From assembly GCF_003860125.1 (NCBI RefSeq), contig NZ_RQYL01000035.1:1-40521 (forward strand): DNA of 40,521 bases. Direction: 5' to 3'. The translations under genes were made by a program, and so were the position numbers. Source of the stretch: Fretibacterium sp. OH1220_COT-178 (GTDB lineage: Bacteria > Synergistota > Synergistia > Synergistales > Aminobacteriaceae). Below, in pieces: positions 4,477-28,407 of the stretch; position 1 is the first letter of the stretch; each line of letters begins with the position of its first letter. The notes beneath the pieces are model-generated. The model was given only the letters and a program-made list of their open reading frames with translations, did no database searches and was not told where the DNA came from.

Positions 4477-4862
4477 CTTCGACACTCCGAATGAGGGGAT
4501 CGACGAGCACAGCCATCAGGATAGGAAAAAGGCGGCGGGCAATCAATTGCATCTGAAAAGAGGCGTATACATCCTCCGCACCGCACCTTCGGGGCACGCT
4601 CCGGGAACGCGGAAAAAATCTTTCCGGACGCGGGCGAGACGCAGGGCTCTCCATGCCCCATAATACGAGGAGATTTCACTGGACGAACATCCGCTCCGCG
4701 TTGGAAGCCCCAATCCGTTTTCCTCCCCTTCATCGACCCGGAAAGGCATTTCCCACTGCGCGTATCTTTTGTGCGGGTCCGCACTCCCGTTGTGGGGGCA
4801 CGGCTCCGGCATTCGTGCGGAAGCCCTGGTGTTTTTTTGAGCAAATCCGGAGGACAATAACG
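4477..4862. other. Divergent intergenic region without a gene
   Basis: This gap lies between the DUF2958 gene (minus) and the AAA+ ATPase gene (plus). It must hold promoters for both, but I see no clear -35/-10 pair. A weak hairpin CGGAAA/TTTCCG occurs near 4610-4626. The open reading frame extending upstream of 4863 on the plus strand has no protein-like composition and no ribosome site, so I treat it as noncoding. Confidence 0.5.
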
Positions 4863-6893
4863 ATGCTGTTCTACAAAATTGAAATGGAGAGCGACAAGGC
4901 TCTGGAGCAGAAGGAGCAGAGGATGAGAAGAACCTGCTCCAGGCTCAAGGAACTGACGGCCGAAGCCAACGAAGAAACGAAGGGAAAATCGGCTTTTTTC
5001 ATCTCGGATATCGAGGGCCGGAAGGTCTCCATCGGCGCCGCCCTGTTCGTGGACCCCATATCGATGAACCGGCAGAGCCTTACGGAGGCGTTCGACGGGT
5101 TCTGCGGTCATACCCGGCTCCGAGGCAAGATCACCGGGACCCGGGAGATCACCGCCAGGGACTTTTCCCGGCTGCTGACCTGGGCGGACCGGAAGGACTT
5201 CATCCACGACGACGACGAGTACAAGGCGGGGCTGGGCATGAAATGCATCGAGTCCTGCACGGACTCCGAATGCGAGGAGTCCATGCTGGAATCGCCCTGC
5301 GCCAAAAAGGAGGCCCTCGCCGAGGCGAAGCGGCTGCTGTGCGGCGCATCCCTCCTGCCCGAGCTCGAACGGATCTTCGACAAACGATCCCCGGATCGTT
5401 TTCTGGGGAACCCCGTCCACTACGCGATCGTGTCGGACGATCCGCAGATCCGGACCTCCATCCGCGAGCTGCTGCTGCGCTCCCTGCTCCAAAGGAAGCG
5501 CCTGATGGGCGGGCGGTACTGCACCATGACCCTCGGGGTCAACGACAGCCTGTTCGAGTGCCTTTACGAGAGCAAATTGAGGGACGTCTACCAGTCCCAG
5601 ATGGGCTGTGCCCTGGTGCTGTCCTTTTCCATGAGCGGCGAGGAGGAGAGCGGCCATGCCGACGCCTCCTTCGAGGTCATCACGTCTGTCGCGGCCCAAA
5701 TACGCGAATTCCGCCGCGGCACCCTGACCGTCCTGGAGATGGGGCGCTCGGAGGAAAAGCTGTTCGACCGGATGATGGAGGAGCTCCACGGCATCACGTT
5801 CGTCAGGCTGGACGAGGAGGTCGTCTTCAACCGCGAGGCCAAGGCCTATCTGAGGCGCCTCGCCGAAAAAAACGGCGTCGCGGACTGCCGCTCGCTCGTC
5901 AAGCTCCTCCCCCGATCCGAGTCCGGGTACCTCGGCACCGACCTGAAGAAACTGTTCGACCGCTGGTACGACAGCTACCTCCGCAAGGAACTCCATCCCC
6001 AATATCGGGAACTCTCGGCGGAGCTGGAGAGGAAAAGCAGGAAGCCGAAGGGAGACGCCTACAAGGAGCTGATGGAGATGGCCGGCCTCAAGTCCGTGAA
6101 GCAGGTCATCCTGGAGGCCATCGACTTCCACAAGGCCCAGAAGCTGTTTGCCGACAGGGGAATCGGCGCGAAGCGGCCCGCCATGCACATGGTCTTTGCC
6201 GGCAACCCCGGCACGGCCAAGACGACCGTGGCCCGCCTGATGGCCCGCATCATGAAGGACAACGGCCTGCTCTCCGCAGGGGGCCTGGTGGAGGTGGGGC
6301 GTAGCGACCTGGTGGGCAAGTACGTGGGGTGGACCGCGCCGATCGTCAAGAAGAAGTTCAAGGCGGCCAAGGGGTCGGTGCTCTTCATCGACGAGGCGTA
6401 CTCCCTGGTGGAGGATCGCGGGGGGCTCTACGGGGACGAGGCGATCAACACGATTGTCCAGGAGATGGAGAACGCACGGGACGACACGGTGGTGGTCTTC
6501 GCCGGATACCCCGACCGGATGCGGGAGTTCGTGGAGCGCAACCCCGGCCTGAGGAGCCGCGTGGCCTTTCACGTCGACTTTCCGGACTACTCGGAGGACG
6601 AGCTGCTGGAGATCCTTCGTCTTGTCGCCAGGCAAAGTCAGCGCACGCTTGGGGAAGGCGCGGAGGAACGCATTCGGGGTCTGCTGAAGGAGGCCCTGGG
6701 CACGCCGGACTTCGGCAACGGACGCTTCGTGCGGAATCTCGTGGAGCGGGCCATGATGCGCCAGGCGTCGCGTCTGGTGCGTCTGCCCTCCGCGGAGACG
6801 ACGGATGAGGAACTGAAGCTCCTGCTGCCCCAGGACTTCGCCCCGCCGGCCGAGGGTTCGGAGACGCATTCCCGCATCCTCGGGTTCCGTTGA
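4863..6893 (+). CDS. AAA+ ATPase of the CbxX/SpoVK type with a large N-terminal region
   Basis: The product is about 676 residues. The C-terminal ~250 residues form a CbxX/CfqX/SpoVK-type AAA+ module: Walker A GNPGTAKT near residue 447, Walker B VLFIDEAYSL near 505, an arginine-finger region (NPGLRSRVAFHV) and a sensor-2-like GNGRFVRNLVERA near 618. Relatives are hexameric remodelling ATPases such as rubisco activases, SpoVK and EccA of type VII secretion. The N-terminal ~430 residues (starting MLFYKIEMESDKALEQ) have no family I can name. They include a Cys-containing acidic segment near 120-150 and regular alpha/beta composition, so they probably select the client. The ATG at 4863 follows GGAGG with 10-base spacing. 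The ribosome site fixes the start; an upstream ATG at 4653 lacks support. The client protein is unknown. Confidence 0.85.
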   Translation: MLFYKIEMESDKALEQKEQRMRRTCSRLKELTAEANEETKGKSAFFISDIEGRKVSIGAALFVDPISMNRQSLTEAFDGFCGHTRLRGKITGTREITARDFSRLLTWADRKDFIHDDDEYKAGLGMKCIESCTDSECEESMLESPCAKKEALAEAKRLLCGASLLPELERIFDKRSPDRFLGNPVHYAIVSDDPQIRTSIRELLLRSLLQRKRLMGGRYCTMTLGVNDSLFECLYESKLRDVYQSQMGCALVLSFSMSGEEESGHADASFEVITSVAAQIREFRRGTLTVLEMGRSEEKLFDRMMEELHGITFVRLDEEVVFNREAKAYLRRLAEKNGVADCRSLVKLLPRSESGYLGTDLKKLFDRWYDSYLRKELHPQYRELSAELERKSRKPKGDAYKELMEMAGLKSVKQVILEAIDFHKAQKLFADRGIGAKRPAMHMVFAGNPGTAKTTVARLMARIMKDNGLLSAGGLVEVGRSDLVGKYVGWTAPIVKKKFKAAKGSVLFIDEAYSLVEDRGGLYGDEAINTIVQEMENARDDTVVVFAGYPDRMREFVERNPGLRSRVAFHVDFPDYSEDELLEILRLVARQSQRTLGEGAEERIRGLLKEALGTPDFGNGRFVRNLVERAMMRQASRLVRLPSAETTDEELKLLLPQDFAPPAEGSETHSRILGFR

Positions 6894-7382: not shown

Positions 7383-10027
<2,645 letters not shown>

Positions 10028-18161: not shown

Positions 18162-18440
18162 TTGAATACGGATTTGATGTCCCTTGGCATACTGTATGTG
18201 TTGGGTATTTTTTTGTTGATATACCTTTTCTCGATTCTGCCGGCAAAAAGAAAGCACAGAAGGATTCGCGCCATGCACGACGCCGTTAAGGCGGGGGACG
18301 AGATCGTAACGCTCGGGGGAATCATAGCGGAAGTTCAGTCCCGAGACGGCGAGGAGGTCGAGCTGAGGATCAATGGATCCGGAACCACGATGAGAGTCCT
18401 GATCTACGCCGTGCAATCCATCCGCAAATCCGCGCAATAA
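18162..18440 (+). CDS. yajC: Preprotein translocase subunit YajC
   Basis: The product has 92 residues. It has one N-terminal membrane helix (LGILYVLGIFLLIYLFSI), then the YajC signature LPAKRKHRRIRAMHDAVKAG, GDEIVTLGGIIAEV and a beta-rich tail. YajC associates with SecDF and the Sec translocon in the inner membrane. The start is a TTG at 18162, about 8 bases behind GGAG; the first in-frame ATG would remove part of the N-terminal region. No secD or secF lies next to it in this window, unlike the usual order. It stands between a terminator on its left and a probable terminator on its right. Confidence 0.88.
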   Translation: MNTDLMSLGILYVLGIFLLIYLFSILPAKRKHRRIRAMHDAVKAGDEIVTLGGIIAEVQSRDGEEVELRINGSGTTMRVLIYAVQSIRKSAQ

Positions 18441-18495
18441 GACCAGGGGCAAGGCGCGCATCTGGCTTCCGGCGAGCCCCGACATTCGTGGATAT

Positions 18496-18525
18496 GGAGA
18501 GGCGTCGACTTCTCCCTCCTTTTTC
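18496..18525 (+). terminator. Candidate terminator after yajC
   Basis: GGAGA (18496-18500) and TCTCC (18511-18515) form a short stem with a 10-base loop, followed by CTCCTTTTT. It lies 55 bases after the yajC stop. The short stem makes this tentative. Confidence 0.4.
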
Positions 18526-18534
18526 CCCTTCCCG

Positions 18535-18564
18535 TTGTTCCTGAAGGCCGAATGATGCTATTAT
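18535..18564 (+). promoter_or_regulatory. Candidate promoter for the Nudix gene
   Basis: TTGTTC (18535-18540) and TATTAT (18559-18564) lie 18 bases apart, about 100 bases before the TTG start at 18664. The -10 hexamer matches the consensus at five positions. It follows the candidate yajC terminator. Confidence 0.45.
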
Positions 18565-18663
18565 CGGGGATATGGGCCCGGAAGCCCAGGGGCGCTTTCG
18601 GAAAAACCCCTTCCGGAAGGACGAAAAGGCGCTCCCATCTCGAATTCGGGGAGGCTTCAAGCG

Positions 18664-20382
18664 TTGGAGAAGGTTTGGAGAAAGCTTCTGAAGCATCTCC
18701 CCCTCTGCTCGGCTGAGGGCGGAGGCTGTACGGAGATCGCCGCCAGCGAACTGGTGCGGCTTGTAGGGGAGGATTCGGAACACCCGCACGCGACGGTGCT
18801 CCTGGTGCAGGAGCTCTTTTGCAAGGCCGGCCTTCTGGAGAGCGGCCGGCTGCGGGAGGGCGTCTGGCGCTTCGTCTCCTATCCCGCGCGTCTGTTCGCC
18901 TGCTCCCTGCTCGCACTTCTCGCGAGCGAGCAGGGACTTTTCTGGGAGGGGTTCTGGGCCGCGGGGATGAACGACGACATCTCTCGGCAGCACAAGGCGC
19001 TCCATGCCCTGGAGACCCTGCGCGACGAACGGACCGAGGCTTTCCCCATCCGAAGGACCTTCGTGGCCTGGGGGGTCATCCGGAGAGAGAGCCGCTTCAT
19101 CCTCAAGCGGCGGGAGAACCGTGAGGACGATCCCGACAATGCCCTTCACGGGAATTACGGTTTTCCCGGAGGACGGGTCAACCTTCGCGACCTGCAAAAC
19201 TGCGAGTCGGGGATGAGCGCCGAGCAAGGCCTCGAACTCCTCTATGGGTTGCCCGAGGCTCTGACGGCCGAGGAGGAAGCCCTTATCGACCGGGCGCTGG
19301 AGCACGCGCTCGTCCGAGAGCTGGAGGAGGAGCTCAGCCTGCAGCACAAGACTCATTACACCTTCACCCGGTCCGACTTTCAAAGGCCCCCGGCGACCTT
19401 CATCCATGGCGCCAACGCGCAGCACTGCCTGACCGAATGCCGTTTTACGCTCTTCGAAATCGCATTGACGCCTGCCGGAGACGCCCGGCTGGCCTCCACG
19501 GTAAGGGATGGAGAGCTCTTCTTTCTGGACGAGATGCAGACCCCCTGCCTGCCCGAACGCAAGGCGTTTCTGGACGATCAGAACGACGGGTTCCTGGACT
19601 GGCTGGAAAAACTGACCGACTCCGCCTCGTCCCTGCACCTCAAGCGCGCGGACCTGTCCCCGGGGCCCGGCGGAGGAGCTAAGGGGGAGGAGCCGCTCGA
19701 GGTGGTCCTTCCTTTAACCGTACAAGAACCGCTGATCCTCGGCGACTGCGAGATCACCTTGAGCGACCCGCAGTACGTCGATCTGTTGCTCCTCCTGGGT
19801 CTGGCGGTCCGGGCGGAGCCCCTCCCGCACCTTCAGGACGGCCCCGAACCAAGCCATTGGGGTTGGGTGCGCATGCAGGACCGAGAACTGCTCCTGCTGG
19901 CACAGAGGCTCAATCAGGAGGCAAGAAAAATCTGCGGAGTCCCTCCCCTGATGATTCAGGACTCGCTGTGCCGTCTGCGCGCGGGAGGAGACAACGTCTT
20001 TTTCAGCCCGGATCTCTTCAGCGCGGAGCTGCGCCAAGAGCAGCTTCTTCTGCGCCGGGGATCCCTGGACAGGCCGGGACTCCTCTATGTAGACGCCCAA
20101 ATCCATGCCTTGACGTTCTCCGGACCCAATTGGGCCCATCTGCAGCACCTGAAAAACGGTGAGAGCGATCGGGTATCCTACGACAACCTGCGCAAACTCA
20201 AGGACAAGAGCAACCGACGTCTGGACGACTTCGTCCGCCTCTGCGGGCTCCGTCAGCTGTACGCCCCCAAGGACGCCACGCTGAGCAGGGAATTGCAGGA
20301 GTTCCGGTTCGCCATCCGCATCATCGGAAGGGACGCACACAGCCCGGACAGCCCGTTCGACGGCCTCGGACGCAGGCGTTAG
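18664..20382 (+). CDS. Large Nudix-domain protein with an interrupted Nudix box
   Basis: The product is 572 residues, far longer than a usual Nudix hydrolase (about 150-200). Residues 1-110 look like a winged-helix-type region (ASELVRLVGEDSEHPHATVL, then a wing-like WRFVSYPARLF). The Nudix fold follows from about 128: RRTFVAWGVIRRESRFILKR, GNYGFPGGRV near 165 and HALVRELEEELSL near 214. In a usual Nudix box GG and REXXEE are about 13 residues apart; here an insert of roughly 40 residues lies between them, although the RELEEE helix is intact. Residues 320-572 are unassigned. The start is TTG, nine bases after GGGGAGG. Its stop lies about 240 bases before a cas-less CRISPR array. Substrate and role are unknown; a regulator that senses a nucleotide is one option. 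Confidence 0.78.
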   Translation: MEKVWRKLLKHLPLCSAEGGGCTEIAASELVRLVGEDSEHPHATVLLVQELFCKAGLLESGRLREGVWRFVSYPARLFACSLLALLASEQGLFWEGFWAAGMNDDISRQHKALHALETLRDERTEAFPIRRTFVAWGVIRRESRFILKRRENREDDPDNALHGNYGFPGGRVNLRDLQNCESGMSAEQGLELLYGLPEALTAEEEALIDRALEHALVRELEEELSLQHKTHYTFTRSDFQRPPATFIHGANAQHCLTECRFTLFEIALTPAGDARLASTVRDGELFFLDEMQTPCLPERKAFLDDQNDGFLDWLEKLTDSASSLHLKRADLSPGPGGGAKGEEPLEVVLPLTVQEPLILGDCEITLSDPQYVDLLLLLGLAVRAEPLPHLQDGPEPSHWGWVRMQDRELLLLAQRLNQEARKICGVPPLMIQDSLCRLRAGGDNVFFSPDLFSAELRQEQLLLRRGSLDRPGLLYVDAQIHALTFSGPNWAHLQHLKNGESDRVSYDNLRKLKDKSNRRLDDFVRLCGLRQLYAPKDATLSRELQEFRFAIRIIGRDAHSPDSPFDGLGRRR

Positions 20383-20621: not shown

Positions 20622-20982
20622 GCTTCCACCCCTATATCAGGAAGACTGAGCTGGCAACAATAGCGGCCCAGTTCCAATGTTATGGGTTTCCATCCCTGCA
20701 ATCAGGAATATTGAGATGCGGGGCGAATCCTCGCGACGGCGCGGGCTGACATGTTTCCATCCCTGCAATCAGGAATATTGAGTCCTTCCTGCGGCGGCGT
20801 TCTTCCTTCCACGTCTCGAGTTTCCATCCCTGCAATCAGGAATATTGAGGCCCGGCAGGGAGCGGAAAAACATACGGTGCGCTGCGTTTCCATCCCTGCA
20901 ATCAGGAATATTGAGTGTGCCGGAGCTCCCGTGCATTGGTGGTCATCACAAGGTTTCCATCCCTGCAATCAGGAATATTGAG
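20622..20982 (-). CRISPR. Cas-less CRISPR array: five identical 30-bp repeats plus one degenerate repeat
   Basis: Identical repeats lie at 20686-20715, 20753-20782, 20820-20849, 20886-20915 and 20953-20982. Spacers are 37, 37, 36 and 37 bases. A degenerate 29-base copy lies at 20622-20650 with a 35-base spacer. On the minus strand the repeat runs from CTCAATATTCC to GGGATGGAAAC; the GAAAC end is typical of type I and III repeats and would give a 5' handle like ATGGAAAC. An internal CCTG-ATTG-CAGG hairpin supports this reading. The degenerate copy at the low-coordinate end marks the trailer, so both clues put the leader above 20982 and transcription on the minus strand. No cas gene is present in the window, so any interference must use Cas proteins from elsewhere. 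Confidence 0.95.
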
Positions 20983-25844: not shown

Positions 25845-27827
25845 CTAGCGTTTTCCCCCTCCAGCGGCCCATTCCTCGAGCAGTGCGATGCAATCCCCGG
25901 CATTCTTCAGTCGGGCGTAGCCCAGACTGTCGCGTCCCGTGTTGTCGGAACGGCCGGGGTCCGCACGGACTCGCAACAGCGCGGAAACGGCCTCGGCATT
26001 GTTGTAGGCGGCCGCAATCATCAGGGGCGTCGTTCCTCCGGAGTCGGGACGGTCCACCTTGGCATCCGAGGAAATCAGCATTTGCAGCACCTCGAGCCCA
26101 TTCGCGTTCTGGGCGGCAAAGTGCAGCGGGGTCCATCCGACGAAATCCACGGCATCCGTTCGCGCACCCGAGTCCAGAAGGAGCCGAGCCGCCTCGGAGT
26201 TGCCGCGGTACGCGGCCTCCATCAGGGGCGTCATATTCCGAAACGTTCGGGACTCGACGTCCGCCCCCGCCCGGAGCAGCAATGCCGTCGATGCGGTCCC
26301 TCCGTCCTGGGCCTGGATGGAGTGCATCAACGCCGTCATCCCATCCAGGTCCCGAACCTCGACGTCCGCGCTCAGGGCCAGAAGGTGCCCCAGGCCCTCG
26401 GCATTGCCCGAGGCCGCGGCGATCATCAGCGCCGTCATGCCCTGGCCGGCCCTCTGGTCCACCGAGGCCCCCGCGCCGACAAGAAGCTCGAAGATATCGG
26501 CCTCCCGGGATTTCCGGGCCGCTACCATCAGCGGCGTCAAGCCGTCCCAGGTGCCCTGGGCGGGATCGGCCCCGAAATCGAGCAAAAGCGCCGTGGCAGC
26601 AGCATCATCCTTCGCCGCCGCCATGATCAGTGGGGTGACCGTCACGGCATTCTTATGGTTGGGGGCCGCCTTCAGCTCCAGGAGGACCTTCAGGGTCTCC
26701 ACTCCCCTCCCGGCATCGAGGGCCGCCATCAAGGGCGTCATCCCCTGCCGAGTGGACTCGTCGACCGGAGCCCCGGAACGGACGAGGTGTCGGATCAACT
26801 CCGGAGAGGCTCCCGAGGAGGCCGCGAAGATCAGGGGCGTCCAGGACCGCAGGTCCCGCAGCCCCACATCGGCGCCGAGGCGCAGCAGGGCCTGGACGGC
26901 GGGCAGATTGTCCGAGCGGCAGGCCTCCATCAAGGGGGTCAGCAGACCGCTCTCTCGCGTATCGGGGTCGGCCCCCGAGGCGACGAGTTTTTCCAGTACC
27001 TCGGCGGAGACCGCAGGATTGGAAGCCCCCAGAAAGAGCGCTCCGCGATTCTGGTCGTCCTCGGCCCGGACGTTGGCCCTCCCCACGATCAGCGCATCCA
27101 CCGCCTCCGCGTCCGCACCGGCGGCAACGGCCCGCATGAGGGGGGTGTAACGTCCGGCATCCCTGACGTTGACATCGGCACCGGCCTCCACCAGAAGCTT
27201 CAGGACGGCCGCGTCCGGCCTTTCGCACGCGGCCAGGAGGGGCGTGACCCCCATGTCGTTCGGCTCGTCCGCCGGGACTCCGGCGTCCAACAGGAGCTCG
27301 ACGCCCCGAACGTAGGGGCGGGCCGCCGCCACCCACAGGGGCGTCCGGCCCTCGCCGTCCCGGATCCTGGGCGACGCGCCGCGACGAAGCAGCGCGGCCA
27401 TGACCTTAGGAGAGTCGTTCATTGCGGCCGCAAGGTGGAGGGGCGTCCGGCCCCTCCCGTCCGTAACATCCAGCGAGGCGCCCGCCTTGACGAGGGCATC
27501 GACAATGCCCTCATGCGGGTTGTAGGCGGCGGCCAGCATCAGAGGAGTCAGCCCCTCGAGCCCCTCGGAGGAGAGCGAGGCCCCCTTCTCGACCAGAAGC
27601 TCCACGACCTTCGGGTCCGAGGCATGCTCCGCCGCCACATGGATGGGTCGGTTGCCGTCCGGGAAAGGTGCGTCCGCGGAGGCCGTCTCCAGAGCGGCAC
27701 GCAGTTCCGGCAGCGAGCCCGAAGAACAGAGGCGCTGCAAGTCGGAAGCCAGGGCCCGGCCCCGGAAAGAAAGCAGGAAAAGGGCAGCTGCCGCCAGGAT
27801 GCATTTCAAGTTTCTTGTCTTTTTCAA
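25845..27827 (-). CDS. Exported ankyrin-repeat protein (18 repeats)
   Basis: The product is about 660 residues. A signal peptide (KKTRNLKCILAAAALFLLSF, then RGRALAS) is followed by 18 ankyrin units that fill nearly the whole protein. Most units carry the GxTPLMxAA core, for example GLTPLMLAAAY and GMTALMIAAAS. Ankyrin stacks bind proteins. Here the export signal points to a periplasmic or surface role, unlike most cytoplasmic ankyrin proteins. No catalytic domain is visible. The start is TTG at 27827, with GGGAGG about 6 bases upstream; the in-frame ATG at 27956 has no ribosome site and adds about 43 odd residues. The deaminase gene lies 73 bases upstream on the same strand, so the two may share a transcript. 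The partner is unknown. Confidence 0.87.
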   Translation of the reverse strand: MKKTRNLKCILAAAALFLLSFRGRALASDLQRLCSSGSLPELRAALETASADAPFPDGNRPIHVAAEHASDPKVVELLVEKGASLSSEGLEGLTPLMLAAAYNPHEGIVDALVKAGASLDVTDGRGRTPLHLAAAMNDSPKVMAALLRRGASPRIRDGEGRTPLWVAAARPYVRGVELLLDAGVPADEPNDMGVTPLLAACERPDAAVLKLLVEAGADVNVRDAGRYTPLMRAVAAGADAEAVDALIVGRANVRAEDDQNRGALFLGASNPAVSAEVLEKLVASGADPDTRESGLLTPLMEACRSDNLPAVQALLRLGADVGLRDLRSWTPLIFAASSGASPELIRHLVRSGAPVDESTRQGMTPLMAALDAGRGVETLKVLLELKAAPNHKNAVTVTPLIMAAAKDDAAATALLLDFGADPAQGTWDGLTPLMVAARKSREADIFELLVGAGASVDQRAGQGMTALMIAAASGNAEGLGHLLALSADVEVRDLDGMTALMHSIQAQDGGTASTALLLRAGADVESRTFRNMTPLMEAAYRGNSEAARLLLDSGARTDAVDFVGWTPLHFAAQNANGLEVLQMLISSDAKVDRPDSGGTTPLMIAAAYNNAEAVSALLRVRADPGRSDNTGRDSLGYARLKNAGDCIALLEEWAAGGGKR

Positions 27828-27900
27828 AACAAACCTCCCGTTTTCAGGAGCGTCCCCAAGCCTGATGGGGCCCCGGGACGGGAACCCGCAAAAAGGGGCG

Positions 27901-28407
27901 CTAGCGCCGCCAATGATCCCTGTGGATCGAAAGGATCTCCTCCTCCAGTTCCGCATCGGCTATGGGGCCGACGACCACGATATCCTTTTGCCCCCGTGCG
28001 AACACCTCCCGGCAGGGCAGATCGAAGGTAGGGTTCGCGGGGTCGCTGCCCGTAAGGGCCAACAGCTTGTTTTCCCCTACGCCGTAGACCACGCGCCCGA
28101 GGTTGCCCCAGTACATCGCCCCGCTGCACATGGCGCAGGGCTCGATGGTGGTGTAGAGGGAACATTCCCAGAGATCGTCGCGGGAAAAACGCTTGGAGGC
28201 CGCCCGCATCAACGCGGACTCGGCGTGACCGGTGCAATCCCGCTCCGTCAGTTCGATGTTCCCCCCGCTGAGCAAGAGCTTCCCCGCCGAGTCGACCAGA
28301 ACCGCTCCAAACGGGTGGTTCCCCCCCCTCAGAGCCGCGACGGCGGCCTCGTGGGCCAAACGCATGAACGCAAGATCCTTGTCCTTATCGAAAAAGTCGA
28401 ACCTCAT
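27901..28407 (-). CDS. Cytidine/deoxycytidylate deaminase-family protein (nucleobase/nucleoside deaminase)
   Basis: The product is about 168 residues. It has the zinc-deaminase motif HAESALM near residue 59 (His ligand and catalytic Glu) and TTIEPCAMCSGAMYW near 85-99 with the two Cys ligands. NHPFGAVLVD and RVVYGVGENK complete the fold. The family includes guanine deaminase and tRNA adenosine deaminase TadA; the extended C-terminus (LPCREVFARGQKDIVVVGPI) favours a free-base deaminase such as guanine deaminase, but this is not certain. The ATG at 28407 has GGGGAG about 8 bases upstream; an in-frame ATG at 28503 would add 32 residues that do not look like the family. Confidence 0.88.
   Translation of the reverse strand: MRFDFFDKDKDLAFMRLAHEAAVAALRGGNHPFGAVLVDSAGKLLLSGGNIELTERDCTGHAESALMRAASKRFSRDDLWECSLYTTIEPCAMCSGAMYWGNLGRVVYGVGENKLLALTGSDPANPTFDLPCREVFARGQKDIVVVGPIADAELEEEILSIHRDHWRR

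Follow-up and report, generated by a model that had tools for sequence, protein, structure and literature searches.

The NrtR/AraR proteins resemble the protein described here in pairing a Nudix domain with a winged helix and in their ADP-ribose context; NrtR is a protein of ~230 aa, with the Nudix domain first and the winged helix last, and within its family BtAraR is without the catalytic residues (PMC4666351). The Nudix RNA pyrophosphohydrolases and decapping enzymes RppH, NudC and Nudt16 share the fold and are small enzymes with an uninterrupted box, the ADP-ribose diphosphatases are marked by a proline 15 residues after the last glycine of the Nudix box (PMC4629899), and isopentenyl diphosphate isomerase, a member of the Nudix clan, has an insertion inside the box, giving GX7EX14RR (PMC5389931). 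At the level of gene neighbourhoods, systems centred on an ADP-ribosylglycohydrolase contain Nudix-HTH regulators, Macro genes and chaperones (PMC9503650, section 3.8).

Our subject is a gene within a 40,521-nt stretch of the genome of Fretibacterium sp. OH1220_COT-178 (Synergistota), referred to hereafter as the window, for which a first-pass annotation had described a Nudix box split by an insert, with the catalytic helix kept. The family to which its product belongs is rare and accessory, has apparently not been described so far, and has a domain architecture unmatched in any library searched.

The gene and its split Nudix box

The coding sequence (18664-20382, + strand) specifies 572 aa from a TTG start, 9 nt before which lies a Shine-Dalgarno-like GGGGAGG (18648-18654, + strand). 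This start and frame are supported by a codon-position GC resembling that of the neighbouring genes and by the relatives of the protein, which begin at the residue equivalent to the TTG. Opposite-strand ORFs over the gene were rejected, the longest of them (18370-19638, - strand) being without support, whereas the + frame has homologues. A small RNA upstream of the gene was not found, in that 18530-18670 folds no better than shuffles, and an Rfam scan of the upstream region gave nothing above the gathering score.

The Nudix domain, delimited by Pfam, AlphaFold2, Foldseek and in-silico excision, comprises residues 128-300 (19045-19563, + strand). Its box does not have the canonical spacing GX5EX7REUXEEXGU: the first part, G169-G170-R-V-N-L-R-D176 (19168-19191, + strand), provides G170-x5-D176, after which there are 41 rather than 7 residues to R218, the first residue of the second part, R218-E-L-E-E-E-L-S-L226 (19315-19341, + strand). 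Thus 47 residues lie between G170 and R218, versus 13 in GX5EX7RE, and the 34 extra residues form an insert at 177-210 (19192-19293, + strand), placed by the spacing and by the excision scores. The spacing from GG to the R-E motif was 39-52 residues in 7/7 family members, with inserts of 24-37 aa, and since the split spacing was present in every member found, the insert is a family trait. G169, G170, R171, D176, R218, E219, E222 and E223 were invariant across the seven, including a protein of only 28% identity on the Methylomonas plasmid pUP202. That the R-E-x2-E-E residues never vary indicates that the catalytic residues are under selection, and judging from this invariance the protein is probably an active enzyme. 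The proline mark of the ADP-ribose diphosphatases was not found at +15; a proline was present at +17 or +18 in 6/7 members and there was none in the L028 protein.

The Nudix annotation of a protein depends on a contiguous box, and a family with such an insert scores too low for the Pfam cut-off and can readily be overlooked. On the full protein the Pfam NUDIX profile scored 19.6 bits (cut-off 21.1), covering the catalytic helix only. On the isolated domain the score rose from 22.7 to 37.3 bits once the 34-residue insert was excised in silico, and the match, until then confined to the catalytic helix, took in the front half of the domain as well; when stretches of 34 residues were deleted at nine other places as controls, the score was never above 23.2 bits. 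Excision of the inserts of two relatives had the same effect (24.7 to 39.7 and 20.4 to 33.5 bits). The AlphaFold2 model was built from a 7-row alignment, the shallowness of which limits it (mean pLDDT 70.5, pTM 0.68), and the catalytic helix was modelled at pLDDT 90-96. All of the top 50 Foldseek matches in the PDB were of the Nudix clan, with BdRppH first (probability 1.00, E 2e-3), and there was also a weak Pfam Nudt16-like match. The modelled protein is, with good support, a Nudix fold from which the insert loops out, the point that the first-pass annotation had proposed to check by structure prediction. A match to the PADLOC defence candidate PDC-S07 was set aside, as it involved only residues 213-241 (the catalytic helix) at 22 bits and not the whole profile.

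Flanking domains

The suggestion that the N-terminus would be winged-helix-like is supported by the AlphaFold2 model, at moderate confidence: residues 1-87 (18664-18924, + strand) are predicted to fold in the order H-E-H-H-H-E-H at pLDDT 57-83. In sequence this module did not match the winged helix of NrtR, and membership of NrtR was rejected, since PF21906 was not detected in the protein or in its C-terminus but was detected in the NrtR neighbour on the Methylomonas plasmid. With its different domain order as well, the layout is neither that of NrtR nor that of a common hydrolase, in agreement with the earlier description. The C-terminal ~230 residues (19690-20379, + strand) form a domain that has likewise stayed without assignment, there being no Pfam or PDB-sequence match and no assignment from Foldseek; weak matches to AfsR and to KptA/Tpt1 were not significant and were discarded.

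Distribution and gene neighbourhoods

Profile searches placed the family in 6/188 Synergistota genomes. One further member was on a contig assigned to a Holosporaceae MAG, and the pUP202 protein is full-length. In a Pseudomonadota sample the family was found in 1/398 genomes, the seed genome only, and phage homologues were absent from INPHARED and from the viral contigs scanned. The pUP202 gene (L036 7980-9665) has been annotated from an internal start at 8601, too far downstream, and a hypothetical ORF on the opposite strand (8160-8561) has been annotated over its true N-terminus.

The window copy is surrounded by genes for YajC, an M20 peptidase, an O6-methylguanine methyltransferase and a BTAD-type regulator, together with a CRISPR array, and has no ADP-ribose or RNA-repair neighbour. 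Elsewhere in its genome there are two ADP-ribosylglycohydrolase-family genes, in tandem on another contig (G000:C12:7236-9223) and downstream of an ABC-transporter-like run, and a single Macro gene, also on another contig; Pnkp and RtcB are absent. As the gene stands alone, its product would either depend on partners whose genes lie elsewhere or have kept only part of its role. Two other genes of the window may be mentioned. The first (4653-6893, + strand) encodes a SpoVK/CbbX-type AAA protein found in only 6/188 Synergistota genomes, of which there is a second copy on contig C22 of the same genome and a 45%-identical relative two genes from the Nudix homologue of genome G159; as a Nudix partner it is no more than a weak lead, since four other genomes have the AAA gene without any partner genes. 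The second (25845-27956, - strand) encodes a 703-aa protein consisting largely of ankyrin repeats.

The relatives have different company. In genome G022 a run of tandem AAA, Hen1 (E 9e-99), Pnkp ligase (E 1e-169), ADP-ribosylglycohydrolase, alpha/beta hydrolase and Macro genes leads to the Nudix gene, which is convergent. G004 has the same run, but with Hen1-Pnkp deleted down to a 42-aa Pnkp remnant. This remnant, the last 42 codons of the ligase gene (G004:C5:74819-74941; L093 4808-4933), lies between the tandem AAA and ADP-ribosylglycohydrolase genes, at the site where the sister genome G022 keeps Hen1 and Pnkp intact. In both genomes Macro adjoins the Nudix gene, being in G004 the sole Macro of the genome, and the ADP-ribosylglycohydrolase is a few genes away. 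In G159 (L026) a convergent ADP-ribosylglycohydrolase gene is directly downstream, and beyond it lies a SpoVK/CbbX-type AAA gene, and in G019 (L018) a gene for Ro60 (TROVE plus Ro60 vWA) is divergent to the Nudix homologue. On pUP202 a NAD-kinase-like gene, an SPFH gene and an ADP-ribose-responsive NrtR (E 3e-78) lie within about 3 kb. Burroughs and Aravind, in Nucleic Acids Res in 2016, reportedly named TROVE and SPFH modules as RNA-repair scaffolds, a role that fits the Ro60 and SPFH neighbours of the Nudix relatives. Finally, L030 and L031 have homologous divergent kinases resembling MAD6/PglW, with a PP2C gene also present in L031.

The region between Ro60 and the Nudix homologue of G019 has features of its own. 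Positions 1470-1690 of L018 (G019:C187) contain a strong fold of ~200 nt (z -3.4 and -4.1 on the two strands), and the intergenic region has two 28-nt direct repeats and a T8 tract; on these sequence features it is a candidate for a Ro-associated Y-like RNA, with no Rfam match to a Y RNA in this region.

As the categories of neighbour were chosen after the loci had been inspected, rough estimates of chance adjacency, ~2/3500 for the Macro gene that G004 has only once and ~4/2600 for the ADP-ribosylglycohydrolase of G159, are only indicative. Pnkp was present in 3/6 Nudix-family genomes (one as the remnant) versus 6/182 others, which gives a Fisher p of 0.0014, or 0.022 with intact genes only, in both cases uncorrected for phylogeny. 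None of seven other Pnkp loci examined, some of them on short contigs, had a family member nearby. Most neighbours of the family are in convergent or divergent orientation rather than in an operon with the Nudix gene, and they differ from one locus to the next.

Such variability, together with a patchy distribution typical of island genes and with closest fold matches that are RppH-type enzymes, would suit a Nudix hydrolase that, like RppH or NudC but with extra domains, serves in general house-cleaning or in removing caps, its neighbourhoods reflecting no more than accessory-gene islands. We consider this quite unlikely, because island noise seems too little to account for the presence, in separate lineages, of ADP-ribosylglycohydrolase, Macro, Hen1-Pnkp and Ro60 neighbours.

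The CRISPR array beside the gene

The first-pass annotation was correct that a cas-less CRISPR array is nearby: five 30-nt repeats with spacers of 36-37 nt (20686-20982) form a real, orphan array, beginning 300 bp downstream of the Nudix gene and without cas genes beside it. Its repeat was found nowhere else in the genome, in which cas1 is on a separate contig, C31, with its own arrays of a different repeat, and the two repeats share only their last 11 nt (GGGATGGAAAC). The reverse complement of the orphan-array repeat ends in GGGATGGAAAC, like the C31 arrays, and given this common end it may be the minus strand of the array that is read, with the array served in trans.

It was from this proximity that the Nudix protein had been suggested to be a CRISPR-linked nucleotide hydrolase, e.g., one degrading a CRISPR second messenger. 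The homologue search speaks against this, as the window locus alone has an array and every other homologue locus is without one, an outcome that the first-pass annotation itself had named as refuting the link; in addition, the array is the sole one of its repeat, adjoins no cas genes and has only the 11 nt of GGGATGGAAAC in common with the repeat of the cas1 locus. We therefore regard a CRISPR-linked hydrolase as extremely improbable. The proximity of gene and array is a coincidence, and the array is not part of the Nudix system.

Proposed function

It is from gene neighbourhood only that we infer a function. The first-pass annotation had offered a nucleotide-sensing regulator or a nucleotide hydrolase, and while the CRISPR-linked version of the latter fails, the invariant catalytic residues and the ADP-ribose and RNA-repair neighbours of the relatives point rather to an enzyme, whose substrates would be diphosphates of the ADP-ribose type or at RNA ends. 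Our best reading, offered tentatively and at somewhat less than an even chance, is of a nucleic-acid-binding, multidomain Nudix hydrolase whose part in conflict or repair modules is to clear diphosphates of the ADP-ribose type, whether these are free or borne on RNA ends. Such an enzyme would cleave the diphosphate of its substrate. The substrate could be ADP-ribose, or one of its derivatives, in the free form in which ADP-ribosylglycohydrolase or Macro enzymes release it; alternatively, it could be an ADP-ribose, NAD or App cap at an RNA end. The N-terminal winged helix would bind nucleic acid, the insert in the box would shape the substrate entrance, and the protein would help to undo NAD-derived modification or RNA damage arising from conflict with phages or toxins. 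Counting against this reading are the missing +15 proline, the variable and mostly non-operonic neighbours, the absence of ADP-ribose or RNA-repair genes beside the window copy, and the other Pnkp loci that have no family member nearby.

The winged-helix-like N-terminus in the AlphaFold2 model could also belong to a transcription regulator of nearby genes. It would then bind DNA, and the Nudix domain would act in the manner of NrtR as a sensor of ADP-ribose or a similar nucleotide, whether or not it also hydrolyses this ligand. Homologues divergent to the Ro60, kinase and PP2C genes (L018, L030 and L031) would be well placed for such control, and systems with an ADP-ribosylglycohydrolase commonly include Nudix-HTH regulators (PMC9503650, section 3.8). 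However, R-E-x2-E-E is invariant here, whereas the NrtR relative BtAraR is without catalytic residues (PMC4666351), the NrtR winged helix was not matched and the domain order differs, and the Methylomonas cluster already holds an NrtR of its own. A regulator thus seems to us somewhat unlikely.

To return to a hydrolase of ADP-ribose-type diphosphates, its more specific form would be a protein new to the RNA-repair and anti-ADP-ribosylation modules of bacteria, in which a split-box, nucleic-acid-binding Nudix enzyme strips ADP-ribose-, NAD- or App-type caps from RNA ends, or clears released ADP-ribose, alongside ADP-ribosylglycohydrolase, Macro, Hen1-Pnkp or Ro60. The ties of the family to ADP-ribose and RNA repair are circumstantial, and in this specific form we judge the proposal unlikely. 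If the neighbourhoods have been read correctly, the family would add to bacterial conflicts an enzyme through which NAD-derived modification is connected to the repair of RNA ends.

Comparison with known systems

The window protein differs from NrtR in having its winged helix at the N-terminus, a split box, a C-terminal domain of 230 residues and invariant catalytic residues; an NrtR is itself present in the Methylomonas cluster. The anti-ADP-ribosylation systems (PMC9503650) are similar to the loci of the relatives in that genes for Macro, for a Nudix-plus-HTH protein and for AAA or chaperone-like proteins are found close to an ADP-ribosylglycohydrolase gene; the Synergistota loci differ in having no rhodanese-type phosphatase among the genes annotated, and the split-box protein differs from the short Nudix-HTH regulator of those systems. 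Hen1-Pnkp genes are common to the G022 locus and to Pnkp-Hen1 RNA repair (PMC4411300), and Ro60, which is beside the G019 homologue, is likewise part of the rsr-Y RNA-rtcBA operons (PMC7790460); the sections of these two papers available to us describe no Nudix component for either. Five other Synergistota Hen1-Pnkp loci have no split-box Nudix protein.

As a Nudix protein, the window protein is like RppH, NudC and Nudt16 in having the full R-E-x2-E-E helix, and unlike these small enzymes in its interrupted box. For an interruption of the box the precedent is isopentenyl diphosphate isomerase, but there the insertion is of a few residues, the motif has R-R and not R-E, and the reaction is a different one. 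In comparison with that short insertion (PMC5389931), what is new here is a Nudix variant with a long insertion in its box, which is both real and unusual.
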